From contig NZ_JACLHY010000003.1 in the NCBI RefSeq assembly GCF_014397245.1, positions 124,001 to 188,000 of the forward strand: a stretch of DNA of 64,000 nucleotides. The letters are read 5' to 3'. The notes beneath the pieces were generated by a model. It saw only the letters and a program-made list of their open reading frames with translations. It was not told where the DNA came from and made no database searches. The DNA comes from Arenibacter arenosicollis (lineage in GTDB: Bacteria; Bacteroidota; Bacteroidia; Flavobacteriales; Flavobacteriaceae). This document shows, in pieces, positions 9,627 to 29,798 of this stretch. Both the position numbers and the translations under genes were made by a program. How positions within the stretch are numbered: the first letter of the stretch is position 1; each line of letters opens with the position of its first letter.

Positions 9627-9650
9627 CCCCTCTTGGGCTCGAACCAAGGA
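9627..9650 (-). repeat. attL: partial copy of tRNA-Asn 3' end
   Basis: A 24-bp exact match to 27957-27980, covering the T-arm and acceptor 3' strand of tRNA-Asn (read TCCTTGGTTCGAGCCCAAGA on the minus strand). The rest of the tRNA is absent here, which marks it as the distal attachment-site duplicate produced by a site-specific recombinase. Confidence 0.92.
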
Positions 9651-17807: not shown

Positions 17808-18458
17808 TTAAACATATTTCCAAATAAATCCGCCACTCTGTTCACGTTCTCCCCTGCAGCACCTTGCAATACAGGTTTTGGATATTCCTGTTTCCTTTGC
17901 GGCATCTGCAACAGAAATATATTTAGCAACCAATTCACCATCTGTTTTAAATTGGCAAACTTCCTTCTTTCTTTGATCCTTATCTGGAATAAATGGTTCT
18001 GTATAATCATAACTCCAATAGAACCCTCTACAGGTAACATTGTAACCCAGACATGCATTACTTATGGATTTTCTAGAAGAATTAACCGCCTCAGCGGCTT
18101 TTTCCAATGAATCATAGAACCCTACCAATTTACCTTCATCCATATTATATTGGTAAACATTCTTTTGAACTCCACCGCCGCAATCGGAATTATAGCCATT
18201 GACATTGCTATTGTATTCCATAATGTACCTTTTTTCTTTAGCAGCCATTTCATTTACATCATTGGCAGTATCTATTTGTTCCCAAGCAAAAGCCTCGGGA
18301 CCATAAGTCCCGATAGCTTCTTGAAAATAACCTCCTAAACCTTTATTGGATTTTTGCACATGGTCCTGCATACGTTCTTCCAAACTTTTGCCAGTCGCAC
18401 CAATATACACTTGACCAGTTTCAATAAACGTTGCCTTATAAATTATCTTCTTAGACAT
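17808..18458 (-). CDS. GIY-YIG endonuclease with two NUMOD1-like modules
   Basis: 216 aa. The N-terminal GIY-YIG nuclease fold (about 4-90) has a divergent first half (IYKATFIETGQVYIGATG, so K-A-T replaces G-I-Y) but keeps YIG, the Arg/His helix (SLEERMQDHV) and a Glu-containing segment (MAAKEKRYIMEYN). Two similar C-terminal modules follow (about 101-150 and 167-216), each with a beta strand, an SLEKAAEAVNSS- or SVADAAKETGIS-type helix pair and a closing FYWSY/FIWKYV strand, as in NUMOD1 DNA-binding modules of homing endonucleases. The start overlaps the primase-helicase stop by 8 bp. A free-standing homing endonuclease or element-defence nuclease is plausible. Confidence 0.88.
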   Translation of the reverse strand: MSKKIIYKATFIETGQVYIGATGKSLEERMQDHVQKSNKGLGGYFQEAIGTYGPEAFAWEQIDTANDVNEMAAKEKRYIMEYNSNVNGYNSDCGGGVQKNVYQYNMDEGKLVGFYDSLEKAAEAVNSSRKSISNACLGYNVTCRGFYWSYDYTEPFIPDKDQRKKEVCQFKTDGELVAKYISVADAAKETGISKTCIARCCRGEREQSGGFIWKYV

Positions 18459-26494: not shown

Positions 26495-27721
26495 CTACCA
26501 GCCCTTATCTAATTGTTTGTTTTTGTCCATAAGCCTTGTCATCTCCTCACTCACCCTTTTCTGAACCACCTTCCCATAATACTCCTGCGTAATCTTTATA
26601 CTGGAATGCCCCAATAACTCACTTACAATTTCCATAGGAACATCATTGTAAAGTAGCACAGTAGATGCAAAAGTTTTCCTAGCCATATGATGGCTTATAG
26701 GTTTATTTATTCCTGCTATTCCAGCAATTTCTTTTAGATAAGAGTTAATCTTTTGGTTGCTAAATTTGGGTAATGCAAAACCTTCAGTTTCATTGTCATA
26801 TTTATCTAGAAGGACCTTGGCTTTAGGCAATAAAGGCACAGATATTATTTTACTTGTTTTTTCCCGTTTCATTTGGATCCATTCATTGCCATCAAAGCCC
26901 TTAACTATGTGCTCCTTTTTAAGGTTTGCCATTTCATGGTATGCCAATCCGGTATAGCAACAAAAAACAAAAAGATCCTTAACCAGTTCAAGTCTAGGTT
27001 GGGCAAATTGATGCTCTTCGAGCAGCTTTAACTCATCTGTAGAAAGAAATACTACTTCTTTCCTGACCCGACCTGGTTTGTGTTGTGCAAATGGATCTTT
27101 ATCCAAATATCCTTCCGCTACGGCCACCTTAATAGGCTTTCTAAGACGCTGTACTGCTTTATTTACTGTTACTTGCTTCTGATCCTTTACAGTCTTTAAA
27201 TAATGCTCGAAATCAGCTAAAAATTGAGGATTAAGTTTGTTCAATGGAAAATCCTTCTTTTTATACTCTGAGAAAATAAATGCCTCTAGGTCATTGCAGA
27301 CATATTCAAATTTTCTCCATGTAGCCTCCTTAATATCCTTATCGATTAATTGCGATTTTTTAGCAAGGAACCTTCTAAAATAGTTAACCACATTGTCCTC
27401 CTTCTTTACTATTTTGCCTGCGTACCTGTCAAAAATGTCATTAATACTATAGTCATCGGAAGCAAGTTCCAAAGAGAGAAGAGCATTATTGAGTTTCTGA
27501 CATATTAAGGACATCTGTCCATTTTTCGATTTACTTTCCAAGTCCTTGCTAAGTACTATTTGCCTTTTAGCATTCCAATAATCTAGATTTACAAATAGAC
27601 CTGTGGCAAAAGCAAGTCTTTTCTTTTCAAAAGTAATCCTGCAGGAGATGGGGCATAAACCCCTTTGATTCATTTTCGCCTTACTAATTACAAAGCGAAT
27701 AGATAATTTGTTTTGATTCAT
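26495..27721 (-). CDS. Tyrosine recombinase (integrase) of the tRNA-Asn element
   Basis: 408 aa from ATG 27721; a TTG two codons upstream (27727) is less likely. The N-terminal arm-binding (about 1-90) and SAM-like core-binding (about 110-205) domains are followed by the catalytic domain. Visible active-site residues are H345-x2-R348, H372 of LLGHSS and the Tyr pair 381/382 in QEYYGKV. The usual first Arg in TGLR is Ala here (CYTGLAYHEM), a known peculiarity of Bacteroidota integrases such as IntDOT. It lies 233 bp from the tRNA 3' end, as expected for the gene that made attL and attR. Confidence 0.95.
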   Translation of the reverse strand: MNQNKLSIRFVISKAKMNQRGLCPISCRITFEKKRLAFATGLFVNLDYWNAKRQIVLSKDLESKSKNGQMSLICQKLNNALLSLELASDDYSINDIFDRYAGKIVKKEDNVVNYFRRFLAKKSQLIDKDIKEATWRKFEYVCNDLEAFIFSEYKKKDFPLNKLNPQFLADFEHYLKTVKDQKQVTVNKAVQRLRKPIKVAVAEGYLDKDPFAQHKPGRVRKEVVFLSTDELKLLEEHQFAQPRLELVKDLFVFCCYTGLAYHEMANLKKEHIVKGFDGNEWIQMKREKTSKIISVPLLPKAKVLLDKYDNETEGFALPKFSNQKINSYLKEIAGIAGINKPISHHMARKTFASTVLLYNDVPMEIVSELLGHSSIKITQEYYGKVVQKRVSEEMTRLMDKNKQLDKGW

Positions 27722-27772
27722 AACCAATTGATTTTAGTGTTAAACAATTGGCATGCAATTCGGTTTCATTAA

Positions 27773-27817
27773 ATGGGAACCTCGAGATTTTGAATGGGAA
27801 CCTCCACGGGAACCTTT
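27773..27817. repeat. Three GGGAACCT direct repeats upstream of the integrase gene
   Basis: GGGAACCT begins at 27775, 27796 and 27808 (spacings 21 and 12 bp). The first two are longer matches (ATGGGAACCTC). They lie between the integrase start and attR; arm-type integrase sites or an excision-factor site are possible. Confidence 0.5.
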
Positions 27818-27831
27818 TTTCTCAAAATAAC

Positions 27832-27842
27832 TTGGCAAGTTG
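27832..27842 (-). repeat. End motif, right copy (CAACTTGCCAA on minus strand)
   Basis: Exact inverted copy of the 11-mer at 9680-9690 at the other end of the element; 115 bp from the attR core. Confidence 0.45.
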
Positions 27843-27907
27843 ACTTTTTGTTGGAAAGTGTTCTTATGGTCTTAAACAAAGGTATTCCCAATGTTTACTG
27901 ACCTAAA

Positions 27908-27942
27908 ACAAAAAAATCCAACCTAAACAAATAGATTGGATT
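27908..27942 (-). terminator. Element-borne replacement terminator of tRNA-Asn
   Basis: AATCCAACCTA (27915-27925) pairs with TAGATTGGATT (27932-27942) with one C-A mismatch; on the minus strand a T-run follows. It lies 12 bp past the tRNA 3' end and belongs to the element side of attR. It shares 23 exact bases (27902-27924) with the ancestral terminator at 9573-9595 but differs in the loop and distal strand. Confidence 0.75.
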
Positions 27943-27953
27943 TCTATAAAAAG

Positions 27954-28027
27954 CTCCCCCTCTTGGGCTCGAACCAAGGACCCTCTGATTAACAGTCAGA
28001 TGCTCTAACCAACTGAGCTAAGGAGGA
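27954..28027 (-). tRNA. tRNA-Asn (anticodon GTT)
   Basis: 74 nt without encoded CCA. Acceptor TCCTCCT pairs with AGGGGGA (one T-G pair), discriminator G. The D-arm contains AGCTCAGTTGGTTAGAGC. The anticodon stem TCTGA/TCAGA encloses loop CTGTTAA with anticodon GTT. The T-arm is CTTGG-TTCGAGC-CCAAG. The 3' part is the integration target of the 18.3-kb element. Its 5' end lies only 6 nt after the stop codon of the GIY-YIG gene at 28034, so it must be cut out of a nuclease-gene transcript or use a promoter inside that gene. Confidence 0.97.
27957..27980 (-). repeat. attR core within the tRNA-Asn 3' end
   Basis: A 24-bp exact copy of 9627-9650. It covers T-stem, T-loop and acceptor 3' strand of tRNA-Asn, leaving the tRNA intact after integration. 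Confidence 0.92.
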
Positions 28028-28035
28028 GTGTATTT
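28014..28035 (-). repeat. 22-bp direct repeat, inner copy (tRNA-Asn 5' end plus leader)
   Basis: The 22 bases here match 28365-28386 exactly. Read on the minus strand they are the 8-nt leader AAATACAC plus the first 14 nt of the tRNA (TCCTCCTTAGCTCA). The two copies flank the small GIY-YIG gene. Confidence 0.93.
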
Positions 28036-28318
28036 AAAATTCTCTTTTTAACTTAATGATCATTTCAGGATACTTTTTTAAATTTTCTATGTATACCTTA
28101 CTTTTCATTTTTTTAATATGGGTTTCAATTTTTCTGGCTATGACCCTAGTCTCAACCTCGAAACTCAAATACAGCTCCCAATCATTGGATTGAGAAGTAA
28201 ATGAACCTTGATATATTCCCATATTGTGCTCATGTATTCTTTGTACTATATCAACCGTTTCTCCAACGTAATATTTTTGAAGACGTTTTGAATACAAAAC
28301 ATAAACCACATAATTCAT
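28034..28318 (-). CDS. Small GIY-YIG nuclease of a tRNA-inserted cassette
   Basis: 94 aa, a lone GIY-YIG (UPF0213-type) domain: VYVLYS (5-10), YYVGET (16-21), Arg/His helix (IVQRIHEHN) and a conserved Glu in RKIETHIKKMKS. Single-domain GIY-YIG proteins are abundant in Flavobacteriaceae; their cellular role is not established. The stop codon TAA (28034-28036) falls partly inside the inner tRNA repeat. The gene lies between two copies of the tRNA 5' end and downstream of an 18-bp perfect palindrome. Transcription would start at the tRNA promoter (28404-28433) and run through this gene into tRNA-Asn. Confidence 0.92.
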   Translation of the reverse strand: MNYVVYVLYSKRLQKYYVGETVDIVQRIHEHNMGIYQGSFTSQSNDWELYLSFEVETRVIARKIETHIKKMKSKVYIENLKKYPEMIIKLKREF

Positions 28319-28338
28319 AATCTCTTAAAGAACGTTTC

Positions 28339-28386
28339 CTCTAACCTCCCGATAGCTATCGGGATGAGCTAAGGAGGAGTGTATTT
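28339..28386 (-). pseudogene. tRNA-Asn 5' remnant interrupted by the palindrome (outer repeat copy)
   Basis: Leader AAATACAC plus tRNA nucleotides 1-14 (28386-28365), then the 18-bp palindrome, then GGTTAGAG of the D-arm (28346-28339). Beyond that the similarity to the tRNA stops and the GIY-YIG leader begins. It lies 18 bp after the tRNA promoter element and is probably transcribed but cannot form a tRNA. Confidence 0.88.
28347..28364. repeat. Perfect 18-bp palindrome TCCCGATAGCTATCGGGA
   Basis: Self-complementary over all 18 bases and directly abutting the outer 22-bp repeat at 28365. On its other side GGTTAGAG (minus strand, plus 28339-28346) continues the tRNA D-arm, so the palindrome interrupts a tRNA 5' fragment in place of GTT of the D-loop. 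It looks like a REP-type unit. Confidence 0.9.
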
Positions 28387-28403
28387 TATCGCCTAAGCGG
28401 GTG

Positions 28404-28433
28404 CAAATATAAATGTTTTTTCAAATACGCCAA
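28404..28433 (-). promoter_or_regulatory. Bacteroidota-type promoter of the tRNA/GIY-YIG unit
   Basis: On the minus strand TTG (28433-28431), 19-nt spacer, TATATTTG (28411-28404) match the TTG-N19-TAnnTTTG consensus. It lies upstream of the tRNA remnant, so it was presumably the original tRNA-Asn promoter and now drives the GIY-YIG gene first. Confidence 0.75.
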
Positions 28434-28481
28434 ACAAAAAATGGCTGTTTTACACCTAAATTTTAAAAATATTTATTTATC

Positions 28482-29798
28482 CTATAAAAACTTCTTGATG
28501 ATATTCCAGATATCGTTTCCAAATACCACTGCCATAAGCCCCATAAGTATAACAAAACCAATTATTTGACCGGTTTCCAATACTTTTTCGCTTGGCTTTC
28601 TGCCAGAAATTATTTCGTACAATAAAAACATTACATGCCCACCGTCCAATGCCGGAATTGGTAGAATATTCAAAAATGCCAACCAAACAGAGAACATGGC
28701 CATAAAATTCCAAAAGAAAATCCAATTCCATTTTTCAGGCATCAATTCTACAATTCCAATAGGCCCTTTTACCTGTTTGTAAGCTCCCGTCTTAGTGTTA
28801 AATATTACCTTAAATTGCCTTATTTGATCCGTCAATACCTGTATAGTCCTGTTATAACCTGCTGGAATGGCCTCAAGAAAACTATAATTATCGGTAACCC
28901 TAAGATCGGTAAGATCTAATTCTATTCCTATTATTCCTTCCTCTGGAACTGTTAGTTCCAAATGCTCGGTAGTACCATTCCTTAAAACGCTAATGTCCAA
29001 TTTCTGATTTGCCGATGCCCCTATCTTACTTCTAAATTCGTCCCAAAATTTGGTATCCACTCCATTAACCCCTATGATTTCATCACCTGGCAATAGACCA
29101 GCCTGCTCCGCTACAGACTCCGGCTGCACCTTGGCAATAATGGCTTTTGATCTATATCCTAAGAAATTTTTACCCTGAGTAGCAAAAACGGTCTCCTTTC
29201 CTTCATCCGATAAGGGAACGGTAATTTCCTGTCCATCCCTTTTAACCGTTACCTCATCACCAAGGATAATATCCAAAACCGCCTCGTTGAATTTTCTGGT
29301 TTTCTTATCATCTACCCTCAAAATTTGATCCCCCGTCTTCAACCCCAACTGTTCTCCAATAGAGTCTACTACTATCCCGTATTTCAAACTATCCGAAGGA
29401 ATATAGGTGTCACCATTACTTGCCAACATCGCAGTATATATTACCCAAGCCAACAAAAAGTTGACAATAACCCCACCGGTCATTATGATAAGACGTTGCC
29501 ATGCCGGTTTGCTCCTAAATTCCCATGGCTGTGGTTCTTGCTTCATTTGCTCGGTGTCCATGCTCTCATCGATCATCCCCGCAATTTTTACATAACCTCC
29601 CAAGGGCAACCAGCCAATTCCGTATTCCGTATCCCCAATTTTCTTCTTGAAAAGGGAAAACTTAACATCAAAAAACAAATAGAATTTTTCTACTTTGGTC
29701 TTGAAATATTTTGCGGGAAGAAAATGGCCCAATTCGTGTAGAATTACCAAAATGGATATGATAAGTACAAACTGTACAATCTGTATTGCTAACGTCAT
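28482..29798 (-). CDS. rseP: Site-2 metalloprotease RseP
   Basis: 438 aa inner-membrane protease. Zinc site HELGH (21-25) is in the first membrane helix and the LDG motif (384-386) in a C-terminal helix (NILPIPALDGGH). Two PDZ domains lie between (about 135-190 and 215-290). Four membrane segments in all. It performs intramembrane cleavage of anti-sigma factors and signal-peptide remnants. It is transcribed toward the tRNA-Asn locus; the gap of about 90 bp contains the tRNA promoter. Confidence 0.95.
   Translation of the reverse strand: MTLAIQIVQFVLIISILVILHELGHFLPAKYFKTKVEKFYLFFDVKFSLFKKKIGDTEYGIGWLPLGGYVKIAGMIDESMDTEQMKQEPQPWEFRSKPAWQRLIIMTGGVIVNFLLAWVIYTAMLASNGDTYIPSDSLKYGIVVDSIGEQLGLKTGDQILRVDDKKTRKFNEAVLDIILGDEVTVKRDGQEITVPLSDEGKETVFATQGKNFLGYRSKAIIAKVQPESVAEQAGLLPGDEIIGVNGVDTKFWDEFRSKIGASANQKLDISVLRNGTTEHLELTVPEEGIIGIELDLTDLRVTDNYSFLEAIPAGYNRTIQVLTDQIRQFKVIFNTKTGAYKQVKGPIGIVELMPEKWNWIFFWNFMAMFSVWLAFLNILPIPALDGGHVMFLLYEIISGRKPSEKVLETGQIIGFVILMGLMAVVFGNDIWNIIKKFL

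Follow-up and report, generated by a model that had tools for sequence, protein, structure and literature searches.

Why is the tRNA-Asn gene of Arenibacter arenosicollis parted from its promoter by the gene of a small nuclease, and why does the 5' end of this tRNA stand on both sides of the nuclease gene? The window, that is, the whole stretch of DNA analysed, comprises 64,000 nt (NZ_JACLHY010000003.1, 124,001-188,000; GCF_014397245.1), and its coordinates are used throughout. All parts of the locus are oriented on the minus strand, where they follow one another in the order promoter, outer 22 bp, palindrome, GGTTAGAG, GIY-YIG gene and inner 22 bp/tRNA-Asn:

28404..28434, minus strand: tRNA-Asn promoter, TTTG-N19-TATATTTG (TTTG at 28431-28434, TATATTTG at 28404-28411; read from the sequence)
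28365..28386, minus strand: outer 22-bp repeat, an 8-nt leader plus tRNA-Asn positions 1-14; the 5' part of the broken tRNA copy
28347..28364, no strand assigned: 18-bp palindrome TCCCGATAGCTATCGGGA, which interrupts the D-loop of the broken tRNA-Asn copy (read from the sequence)
28339..28346, minus strand: GGTTAGAG, where the broken tRNA copy resumes (about tRNA positions 18-25; the alignment spans tRNA bases 1-25)
28034..28318, minus strand: GIY-YIG nuclease gene, 94 aa, catalytic domain only
28014..28035, minus strand: inner 22-bp repeat, the leader plus the first 14 bases of the intact tRNA; exact match to 28365-28386
27953..28027, minus strand: intact tRNA-Asn(gtt); the assembly has no other full-length match to tRNA-Asn

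The first-pass annotation had recorded the gene, an exact 22-bp direct repeat, the palindrome, a stop codon falling inside the repeat and a tRNA starting 6 nt further on, with a promoter beyond the outer copy, and all of this holds on re-reading. The stop codon (28034-28036) shares two bases with the inner repeat. The GIY-YIG gene is the sole open reading frame of at least 60 aa between the two direct repeats; no recombinase is encoded by frames of that size inside the repeat-bounded unit, which does not meet the criterion of a tRNA island with a tyrosine recombinase. A self-splicing intron around the nuclease was considered and rejected, as no group I or group II intron family matched 27700-28700 at E<=0.1. 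Other known RNAs were searched for in the same interval with three matches, of which only the tRNA scored above its gathering score, and the leader region shows no unusual stability in its predicted RNA fold (z=-1.67). The 16-bp core of the palindrome has a single match in the 64-kb window at up to three mismatches, against an expectation of 0.09; one was present in 9 of 100 shuffles. As far as sequence comparison can tell, the architecture is more than chance, and it recurs in well over a hundred loci.

According to ARAGORN, tRNA-Asn is the sole tRNA in the window. Just past its 3' end lies a tyrosine-recombinase integrase gene (Phage_int_SAM_5, Phage_integrase; 26495-27953, minus strand), and bases 48-71 of tRNA-Asn recur without a mismatch, over 24 nt, at 9627-9650. 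Together these probably represent an ordinary, independent island of ~18 kb on the tRNA 3' side, and mobile DNA therefore flanks tRNA-Asn on both sides. A second GIY-YIG match of the window (18189-18449, minus strand; 217-aa open frame) falls within this presumed island.

The 94-aa protein matches the Pfam profile PF01541 (E=3.8e-11) and thus meets the profile criterion for GIY-YIG proteins, while a search of NCBIfam returned no family for it. All 18 aligned members match PF01541, 12 of them also the T5orf172 model, and eight domain positions are invariant in 18/18, among them Y6, Y17, G19, R27, H31 and E65. What we take to be the catalytic residues, the two motif tyrosines, Arg and Glu, are all kept. 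AlphaFold2 models the whole protein with confidence as a single GIY-YIG domain (pLDDT 91.5), with 1zg2 as the best fold match in the PDB (E=2.5e-4) and the sole one at E<=0.001. Ranked by sequence, UPF0213 domains come closest among solved proteins, followed by Slx1 and, at the end, the I-TevI catalytic domain; the fold search keeps this order, but its TM-scores for Slx1 and I-TevI are alike. No HUH (Y1) transposase domain was found in the protein, which matched PF01541 only, so that the criterion of a REP/RAYT system is not met. A dN/dS value could be computed for 21 of 22 nuclease pairs and was 0.09-0.32 (dS exceeded 1 in six pairs, which makes these rough, and one pair rests on two differences), and codon comparison establishes that the nucleases are under purifying selection.

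Is the tRNA-Asn locus alone in its genome? A search with the 94-aa protein gave 8 matches and one with the Pfam GIY-YIG model 19. Five tRNA genes, tRNA-Asn, tRNA-Pro(ggg), tRNA-Pro(tgg), tRNA-Arg(tcg) and tRNA-Leu(caa), have a small GIY-YIG gene immediately ahead of them, and at all of these loci but Pro(tgg) a hairpin-broken tRNA copy precedes the nuclease gene. On contig C37, the nuclease gene at Pro(tgg) is truncated by the contig end, and a three-copy array at the start of contig C5, carrying the same nuclease, has visible broken Pro(tgg) copies. A stop lies inside the Arg nuclease and inside one array copy. At five further GIY-YIG places (L013-L017), no tRNA was found within the 1.8-2.2 kb examined. 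Contigs C5, C37 and C45 (L006, L009 and L008) end inside or beside nuclease/tRNA arrays, whose copy numbers are thus undetermined, and assemblies may break often at such arrays.

The first-pass annotation had proposed that small GIY-YIG genes and palindromes form a widespread, tRNA-targeting unit in Flavobacteriaceae. For a first sample, a protein pattern from four nucleases, blind to tRNAs, matched 144 stretches; a relative is encoded in 101 of them, and the 80 best make up the sample. An intact tRNA on the same strand lies within 800 nt in 70/80, and within 100 nt in 56 of those 70; in many of the loci the tRNA starts 9 or 14 nt before the ORF end. A family search covered 397 genomes, of which 32 matched at E<=1e-16, and contributed another 29 loci; 26 of these have an intact tRNA. 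In a phylum search, 209 of 395 Bacteroidota genomes had a relative at E<=1e-12, a figure that counts relatives and not verified tRNA-linked elements, with a profile built from tRNA-linked members and the best matches listed first. The phylum sample (n=69) combines 29 fetched loci with 40 picked one per genome among the best matches listed, and leaves out the window's own locus (L248), which was the 30th in this search. An intact same-strand tRNA was present within 700 nt in 63/69, and for the 40 picked loci within 100 nt in 30 and within 500 nt in 38. The proposed unit is indeed recurrent, but it is not confined to Flavobacteriaceae, given relatives in 209/395 Bacteroidota and a nearby tRNA in 63/69 of the loci examined.

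These counts depend on how misses were scored. Loci without a tRNA that passed the T-loop filter were taken as misses (10/80, 3/29 and 6/69), some of them at contig ends; one of the ten, L025, has a tRNA-Arg 37 nt upstream that the filter rejected. Of the six tRNA-less phylum loci, five (all but L258) were read by eye; each contained tRNA-like pieces plus a palindrome, and the counts leave them out. A frequent neighbour, tRNA-Ser(gct), was excluded in the 80- and 29-locus counts and in an earlier upstream-only scan, and kept in the phylum sample. The samples overlap in at least one locus (L154/L262), and genome G755 contributed two loci. If the count is limited to loci with a second tRNA copy, the elements occur at tRNAs with 22 different anticodons:

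Asn gtt; Pro tgg, ggg, cgg, agg; Arg cct, ccg, tcg; Leu caa, taa, cag; Ser gct, tga, gga
Ala ggc; Phe gaa; Met cat; Asp gtc; Val tac; Gly gcc; Thr tgt; Lys ttt

In a MAG labelled Deltaproteobacteria (L065), a series of repeated tRNA 3' fragments, all bearing a TTCCGAAGGATTTCGGAA hairpin, stands between tRNA-Asn and the nuclease that follows; this is either an element outside Bacteroidota or a mis-binned contig. No relative was found at E<=1e-5 among 50,697 phage records and 72,556 plasmid records, and five distant relatives on viral contigs had no tRNA in the stretch examined. Phage or plasmid cargo was rejected on these grounds.

A tree of 113 nucleases requires 14 changes of tRNA label (54.5 on average after shuffling; minimum 11). 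The tree rests on 93 columns only, with 62 of 109 inner branches open, and L157 (9 aa) was dropped. Within these limits the phylogeny establishes that nuclease lineages mostly keep to one tRNA, with few switches, and the site fidelity expected of homing elements is met by the 14 against 54.5 label changes. Vertical descent and site-specific transfer were not separated.

What does the recurrent unit consist of? A second tRNA copy was called at z>=5 against shuffled tRNAs, across the gene from the intact tRNA. It was present in 62/70 loci of the first sample, in 22/26 of the family search and in 3/3 testable own loci (of the five, Arg was rejected by the filter and Pro-tgg lies at a contig edge), giving 87 from the 80, 29 and five own loci, and in 57/62 assessable loci of the phylum sample. 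Copies below the threshold were scored as absent, which concerned 5/62 phylum loci (plus one edge case) and 12/99 in the other sets, including L018, where the fragment is plain by eye. The layout that the first-pass annotation had described, with the gene before the tRNA, holds for what we call the D form, which starts with the broken copy and ends with the intact tRNA, as at the Asn locus (56/70 in the first sample, 9/26 in the family search). It is not the sole layout, since a mirror-image U form is common (14/70 and 17/26), in which the intact tRNA and its terminator are followed by the gene and then by the broken copy, often with a second terminator. In two U-form loci (L020, L021) the palindrome, as read from the sequence, also replaces the loop of the duplicated terminator. 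In the genome of A. arenosicollis, tRNA-Ala(ggc) and tRNA-Arg(cct) (L211, L213) have tRNA 3' fragments downstream, with no nuclease in the stretch read, and these are possibly scars of U-form elements.

In the arrays that were read, one end holds the intact tRNA, and it is the nuclease and the broken copies rather than intact tRNAs that have been multiplied; an exception is L283, an array with an intact tRNA-Val at each end. In L147 the outermost broken copy is decayed and the inner ones are fresh, which, from the state of the copies, looks like successive rounds. Four to five near-equal-scoring nuclease units at regular spacing were observed in three genomes (G691:C1:2945597-2947090, G633:C1:120138-122171 and G586:C1:2899223-2900419), which suggests recent amplification.

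Arrays could also be understood if the nuclease had a domesticated or defensive role. Co-transcribed with the tRNA, it might protect the tRNA gene, for instance if it cleaved integrative elements that enter the cell with an attachment site copied from the tRNA, or it might amplify tRNA dosage as SegB does. In the part of the source available to us, SegB is described as driving tandem amplification of a tRNA segment via microhomology of a tRNA 5' region with the segB 3' region (PMC13096335), and ORF ends often overlap tRNA starts here. The integrase gene beyond the 3' end of the same tRNA-Asn would likewise fit a defence of the tRNA. We regard such a role as improbable: the element is patchily present, with empty sites and scars between sister species, and the arrays read multiply the nuclease and broken copies, not intact tRNAs.

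The palindrome was the second half of the proposed unit. An initial test, which all 87 broken copies passed (87/87), was discarded, as 60/87 intact tRNAs also passed via their own stems. With an arm of at least 6, a loop of at most 8 and the tRNA's own stems excluded, a foreign palindrome was found in 86/87 broken copies, against 11.8 in shuffles, and in 50/57 of the phylum sample, against 6.7 expected, with 7/57 lacking one by this test. Across loci it sits in the D, anticodon, variable or T regions of the tRNA. Elements of D form at tRNA-Asn carry the identical 18-mer right after tRNA base 14 in A. arenosicollis and at eight other Flavobacteriaceae loci (L018, L146-L152), with one base different among tRNA bases 1-14 before the palindrome in L018. 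At Pro(tgg), a hairpin takes the place of the T-arm, with arms GTCACGC/GCGTGAC in 33/34 anchored loci and loops in 17 forms. Without an anchor, 12 of 46 Pro(tgg) loci went unscored, and in five of these (L054, L055, L064, L085, L092) it is the anticodon arm that holds a hairpin, one with TCCCGC.

As an exclusive hallmark of the element, the palindrome had to be rejected. The exact 16-mer core occurs at three places in the genome, and TCCCGA-N3-7-TCGGGA at 21 sites in 5.4 Mb (L001-L003, L175-L192; one for a reversed-pattern control), of which only 1/21 is near a tRNA, the other 20 having none within 500 nt. The TCCCGA class, with 2 to 42 sites in each of 18 Arenibacter genomes, is a separate small repeat family. 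Palindrome and nuclease counts over 18 genomes are moderately correlated (Spearman 0.50, p=0.034). The pairing of palindrome and nuclease proposed by the first-pass annotation therefore survives in part: a foreign palindrome accompanies nearly all broken copies, but the exact Asn palindrome also occurs elsewhere and other elements use others. Judged from their distribution, palindromes are tied to the elements as a class, and some of the sequences also live elsewhere in the genome.

Could the whole arrangement be a neutral by-product, in which a nuclease gene was caught in a tRNA duplication and the redundant copy then collected independent mobile palindromes? Palindromes of the same class do occur genome-wide, and an insert in an intact tRNA would be lethal, so that only a spare copy would show one. 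Yet 21 TCCCGA sites in 5.4 Mb amount to about 3 in 10,000 per 80-nt stretch, against 86/87 broken copies with a foreign palindrome, and one and the same nuclease family, under purifying selection, recurs at many tRNAs. We consider a neutral origin very improbable.

A different reading of the palindromes is that the element is guided by structure, with an Slx1-like nuclease reading hairpins (the palindrome, or tRNA arms extruded as single strands or cruciforms) and the palindrome serving as its cognate end, so that movement would be hairpin-guided rather than classical sequence-specific homing. The closest solved relatives, UPF0213 and Slx1, point in this direction, as does the near-universal occurrence of palindromes in broken copies, the constancy of the Pro-tgg arms beside variable loops, and the range of positions occupied, from the D, anticodon, variable or T regions to the duplicated terminator loop of L020 and L021. 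Palindromes of the form TCACGC-N2-7-GCGTGA are, moreover, nearly confined to elements in the genome of A. arenosicollis, with three of four sites at tRNA-linked nuclease elements. Against this, TCCCGA palindromes are mostly away from tRNAs (20/21), the arms could be conserved because each clade goes back to one founder, Slx1 and I-TevI are not clearly separated by fold scores, and there are no binding data. Guidance by structure is thus an explanation that we keep in mind but think unlikely.

Does the element come and go at its site? The rseP/tRNA-Asn site was compared over 18 Arenibacter genomes, with one full element (that of the window), four nuclease-less scars and 13 element-free sites. 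The scars, a broken tRNA plus palindrome without the nuclease, are found in G015 and G005 and, decayed and judged by eye, in G017 and G004. Two of the element-free sites (L135, L136) have two intact tRNA-Asn genes, with starts separated by 323 and 377 nt and no nuclease in between, and three others (L132, L140, L144 of G013, G003 and G002) a different, unrelated-looking insert of about 35-45 nt with GC-rich inverted repeats between promoter and tRNA-Asn. In a DNA tree of the rseP region the sister of the window is G015 (93% DNA identity), which has a scar, and scar-bearing G017 is sister to the empty G011. In the genomes compared, presence is patchy between sister species, with empty sites and scars. 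The piece missing from the scar is, as read from the sequence, bounded by AAGAGA repeats, which suggests that the nuclease was lost by deletion between them; insertion into a pre-existing scar is not excluded in the genome of A. arenosicollis. A nuclease at a defined site with empty alleles in relatives is what homing calls for, and this is met without the direction of change being shown. Gain and loss cannot be polarised at the Asn site, because a perfect empty site may also result when the 22-bp repeats recombine.

What would the insertion mean for the host? The motif TTTG-N19-TATATTTG was assigned as a Bacteroidota-type promoter from what we take to be the consensus. In the 400 nt on each side of the gene start, TANNTTTG occurs on the minus strand in the upstream promoter only. 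Promoter and tRNA-Asn are now ~380 nt apart at this locus, and the same leader directly abuts tRNA-Asn in empty-site relatives (e.g., G008). A search of the assembly with the tRNA-Asn sequence gave one full-length match, the other six being partial tRNA matches of 77-87% identity plus one 24-nt fragment, and tRNA calling around 37 Rfam matches returned tRNA-Asn once; the element therefore separates a tRNA-Asn that is single-copy in the assembly from its promoter. That this tRNA is made by transcription through the nuclease gene remains an inference, with no joint transcript data. Across 63 D-form loci, TANNTTTG lies within 80 nt before the broken copy in 30 and before the intact tRNA in 10, so that the general case for read-through is, by motif position, only weakly supported.

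To summarise what the comparisons establish, the anatomy of the unit, its recurrence at many tRNAs, the fidelity of lineages to their tRNA, purifying selection, tandem arrays, empty sites and scars are all secured, albeit by sequence evidence alone. We posit, with moderate confidence, that the unit is a minimal homing-type selfish element that parasitises one particular tRNA gene and regenerates its target; cutting, homing, read-through and the role of the palindrome are inferred. It would consist of a single-domain GIY-YIG nuclease and enough tRNA sequence for one complete tRNA at one end. The nuclease would cut the tRNA gene in element-free alleles, in the D-arm in the case of the Asn element, and repair from the element-bearing copy would insert the palindrome, the rest of the fragment, the nuclease, and the leader and tRNA 5' part. 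The displaced tRNA 5' part would remain upstream, broken by the palindrome, and the full tRNA would be rebuilt downstream without splicing. The host would thereby keep its tRNA but transcribe it through the nuclease gene, and loss of the promoter side would therefore be costly. Recombination between the direct repeats would remove the element and restore the exact empty site. The palindrome may act as a hairpin recognised by the nuclease, or as a lock against cutting, folding or recombination of the spare copy.

Several points speak against this homing account. The element retains an intact tRNA, and the immunity of its own allele is not obvious; a homing element is expected to interrupt its own recognition site, and here one tRNA copy is interrupted and the other is intact, with the recognition site unknown. 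The 94-aa protein has, as modelled, no separate DNA-binding domain, the absence of which is unusual for sequence-specific homing enzymes, and by sequence similarity its nearest solved relatives are UPF0213 and the structure-specific Slx1, not I-TevI. Further points are the lack of a relative at E<=1e-5 in the phage and plasmid records searched, a TCCCGA class that stands apart from the element, loci without a second copy or palindrome, unpolarised gain and loss, weak general read-through, the two intact tRNA-Val of L283, and stops in two copies of the genome itself. On the other side, the search for single-domain GIY-YIG genes beside tRNAs, flanked by tRNA fragments and palindromes and with empty-site relatives, was carried out as the first-pass annotation had envisaged, and neither of the outcomes that would have refuted it, relatives with the gene but without tRNA fragments or palindromes, or a repeat that predates the gene and arose independently, was seen. 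Its interpretation is supported, with insertion, selfishness and dependence on read-through still being inferences. More speculatively, and we hold this to be possible but doubtful, the elements could be phylum-wide parasites of tRNA genes in which an Slx1-like, structure-reading GIY-YIG nuclease and its cognate palindrome constitute a new hairpin-guided mobility, the palindrome marking the cut site in the spare copy and each lineage being locked to one isoacceptor, here one whose only gene is held hostage.

If the homing-type reading is true, many Bacteroidota carry one to a dozen copies of a ~350-bp parasite on essential tRNA genes, largely unnoticed, and target regeneration without splicing, known in fungal mitochondria, works on bacterial chromosomes too. 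It could also account for small GIY-YIG genes beside tRNAs and for assembly breaks at tRNA genes, and would offer a testable system for how a 94-residue domain locates one tRNA gene, in which the role of the palindrome is directly testable. In the literature, no description of tRNA-linked GIY-YIG elements in Bacteroidota was found by title or abstract among the best-ranked entries, with few subscription journals covered, which is weak evidence of novelty.

How does the element compare with known systems? REP hairpins are small palindromes tied to one nuclease gene, in that they serve RAYT transposases, which are HUH enzymes; the tRNA-linked element differs in its GIY-YIG domain, its tRNA fragments and its direct repeats. 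Genomic islands of tyrosine recombinases use a tRNA as their site and restore it, whereas the present unit has no recombinase and the duplicated part is the tRNA 5' end. With UPF0213 and Slx1 (1zg2, 1ywl and Slx1 structures) the nuclease shares its catalytic domain, and with UPF0213 also a similar size. Slx1 is a structure-specific repair nuclease that works with a partner, and we know of no tRNA linkage of UPF0213 proteins.

SegB resembles the present system in being a GIY-YIG nuclease whose gene adjoins tRNA genes; it is a larger protein than 94 aa. In phages T4 and T6 it is a free-standing homing endonuclease among tRNA genes (PMC2988022, PMC13096335; both consulted in part). Unlike the element described here, SegB is phage-borne and lies between tRNAs, no palindrome-broken tRNA copy is described for it in the portions of these sources available to us, and no phage record matched the 94-aa protein.

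A close parallel is found in fungal mitochondria, where mORFs of Glomus (atp6, atp9, cox2, nad3) and Allomyces (atp6) place a nuclease ORF inside a host gene (PMC3630166). According to the accessible part of that work, the nucleases are LAGLIDADG proteins, or GIY-YIG in atp9, and a substitute gene end is brought in while the native end is displaced (PMC3630166). The targets of mORFs, as far as described there, are mitochondrial protein genes whose carboxy-terminal end is replaced, whereas here they are bacterial tRNA genes, the spare tRNA copy is broken by a palindrome, and both 5' and 3' forms exist. What the two have in common is a nuclease ORF together with a duplicated host-gene end, one of which is displaced, and in this sense the tRNA-linked element works like a mORF without being one.
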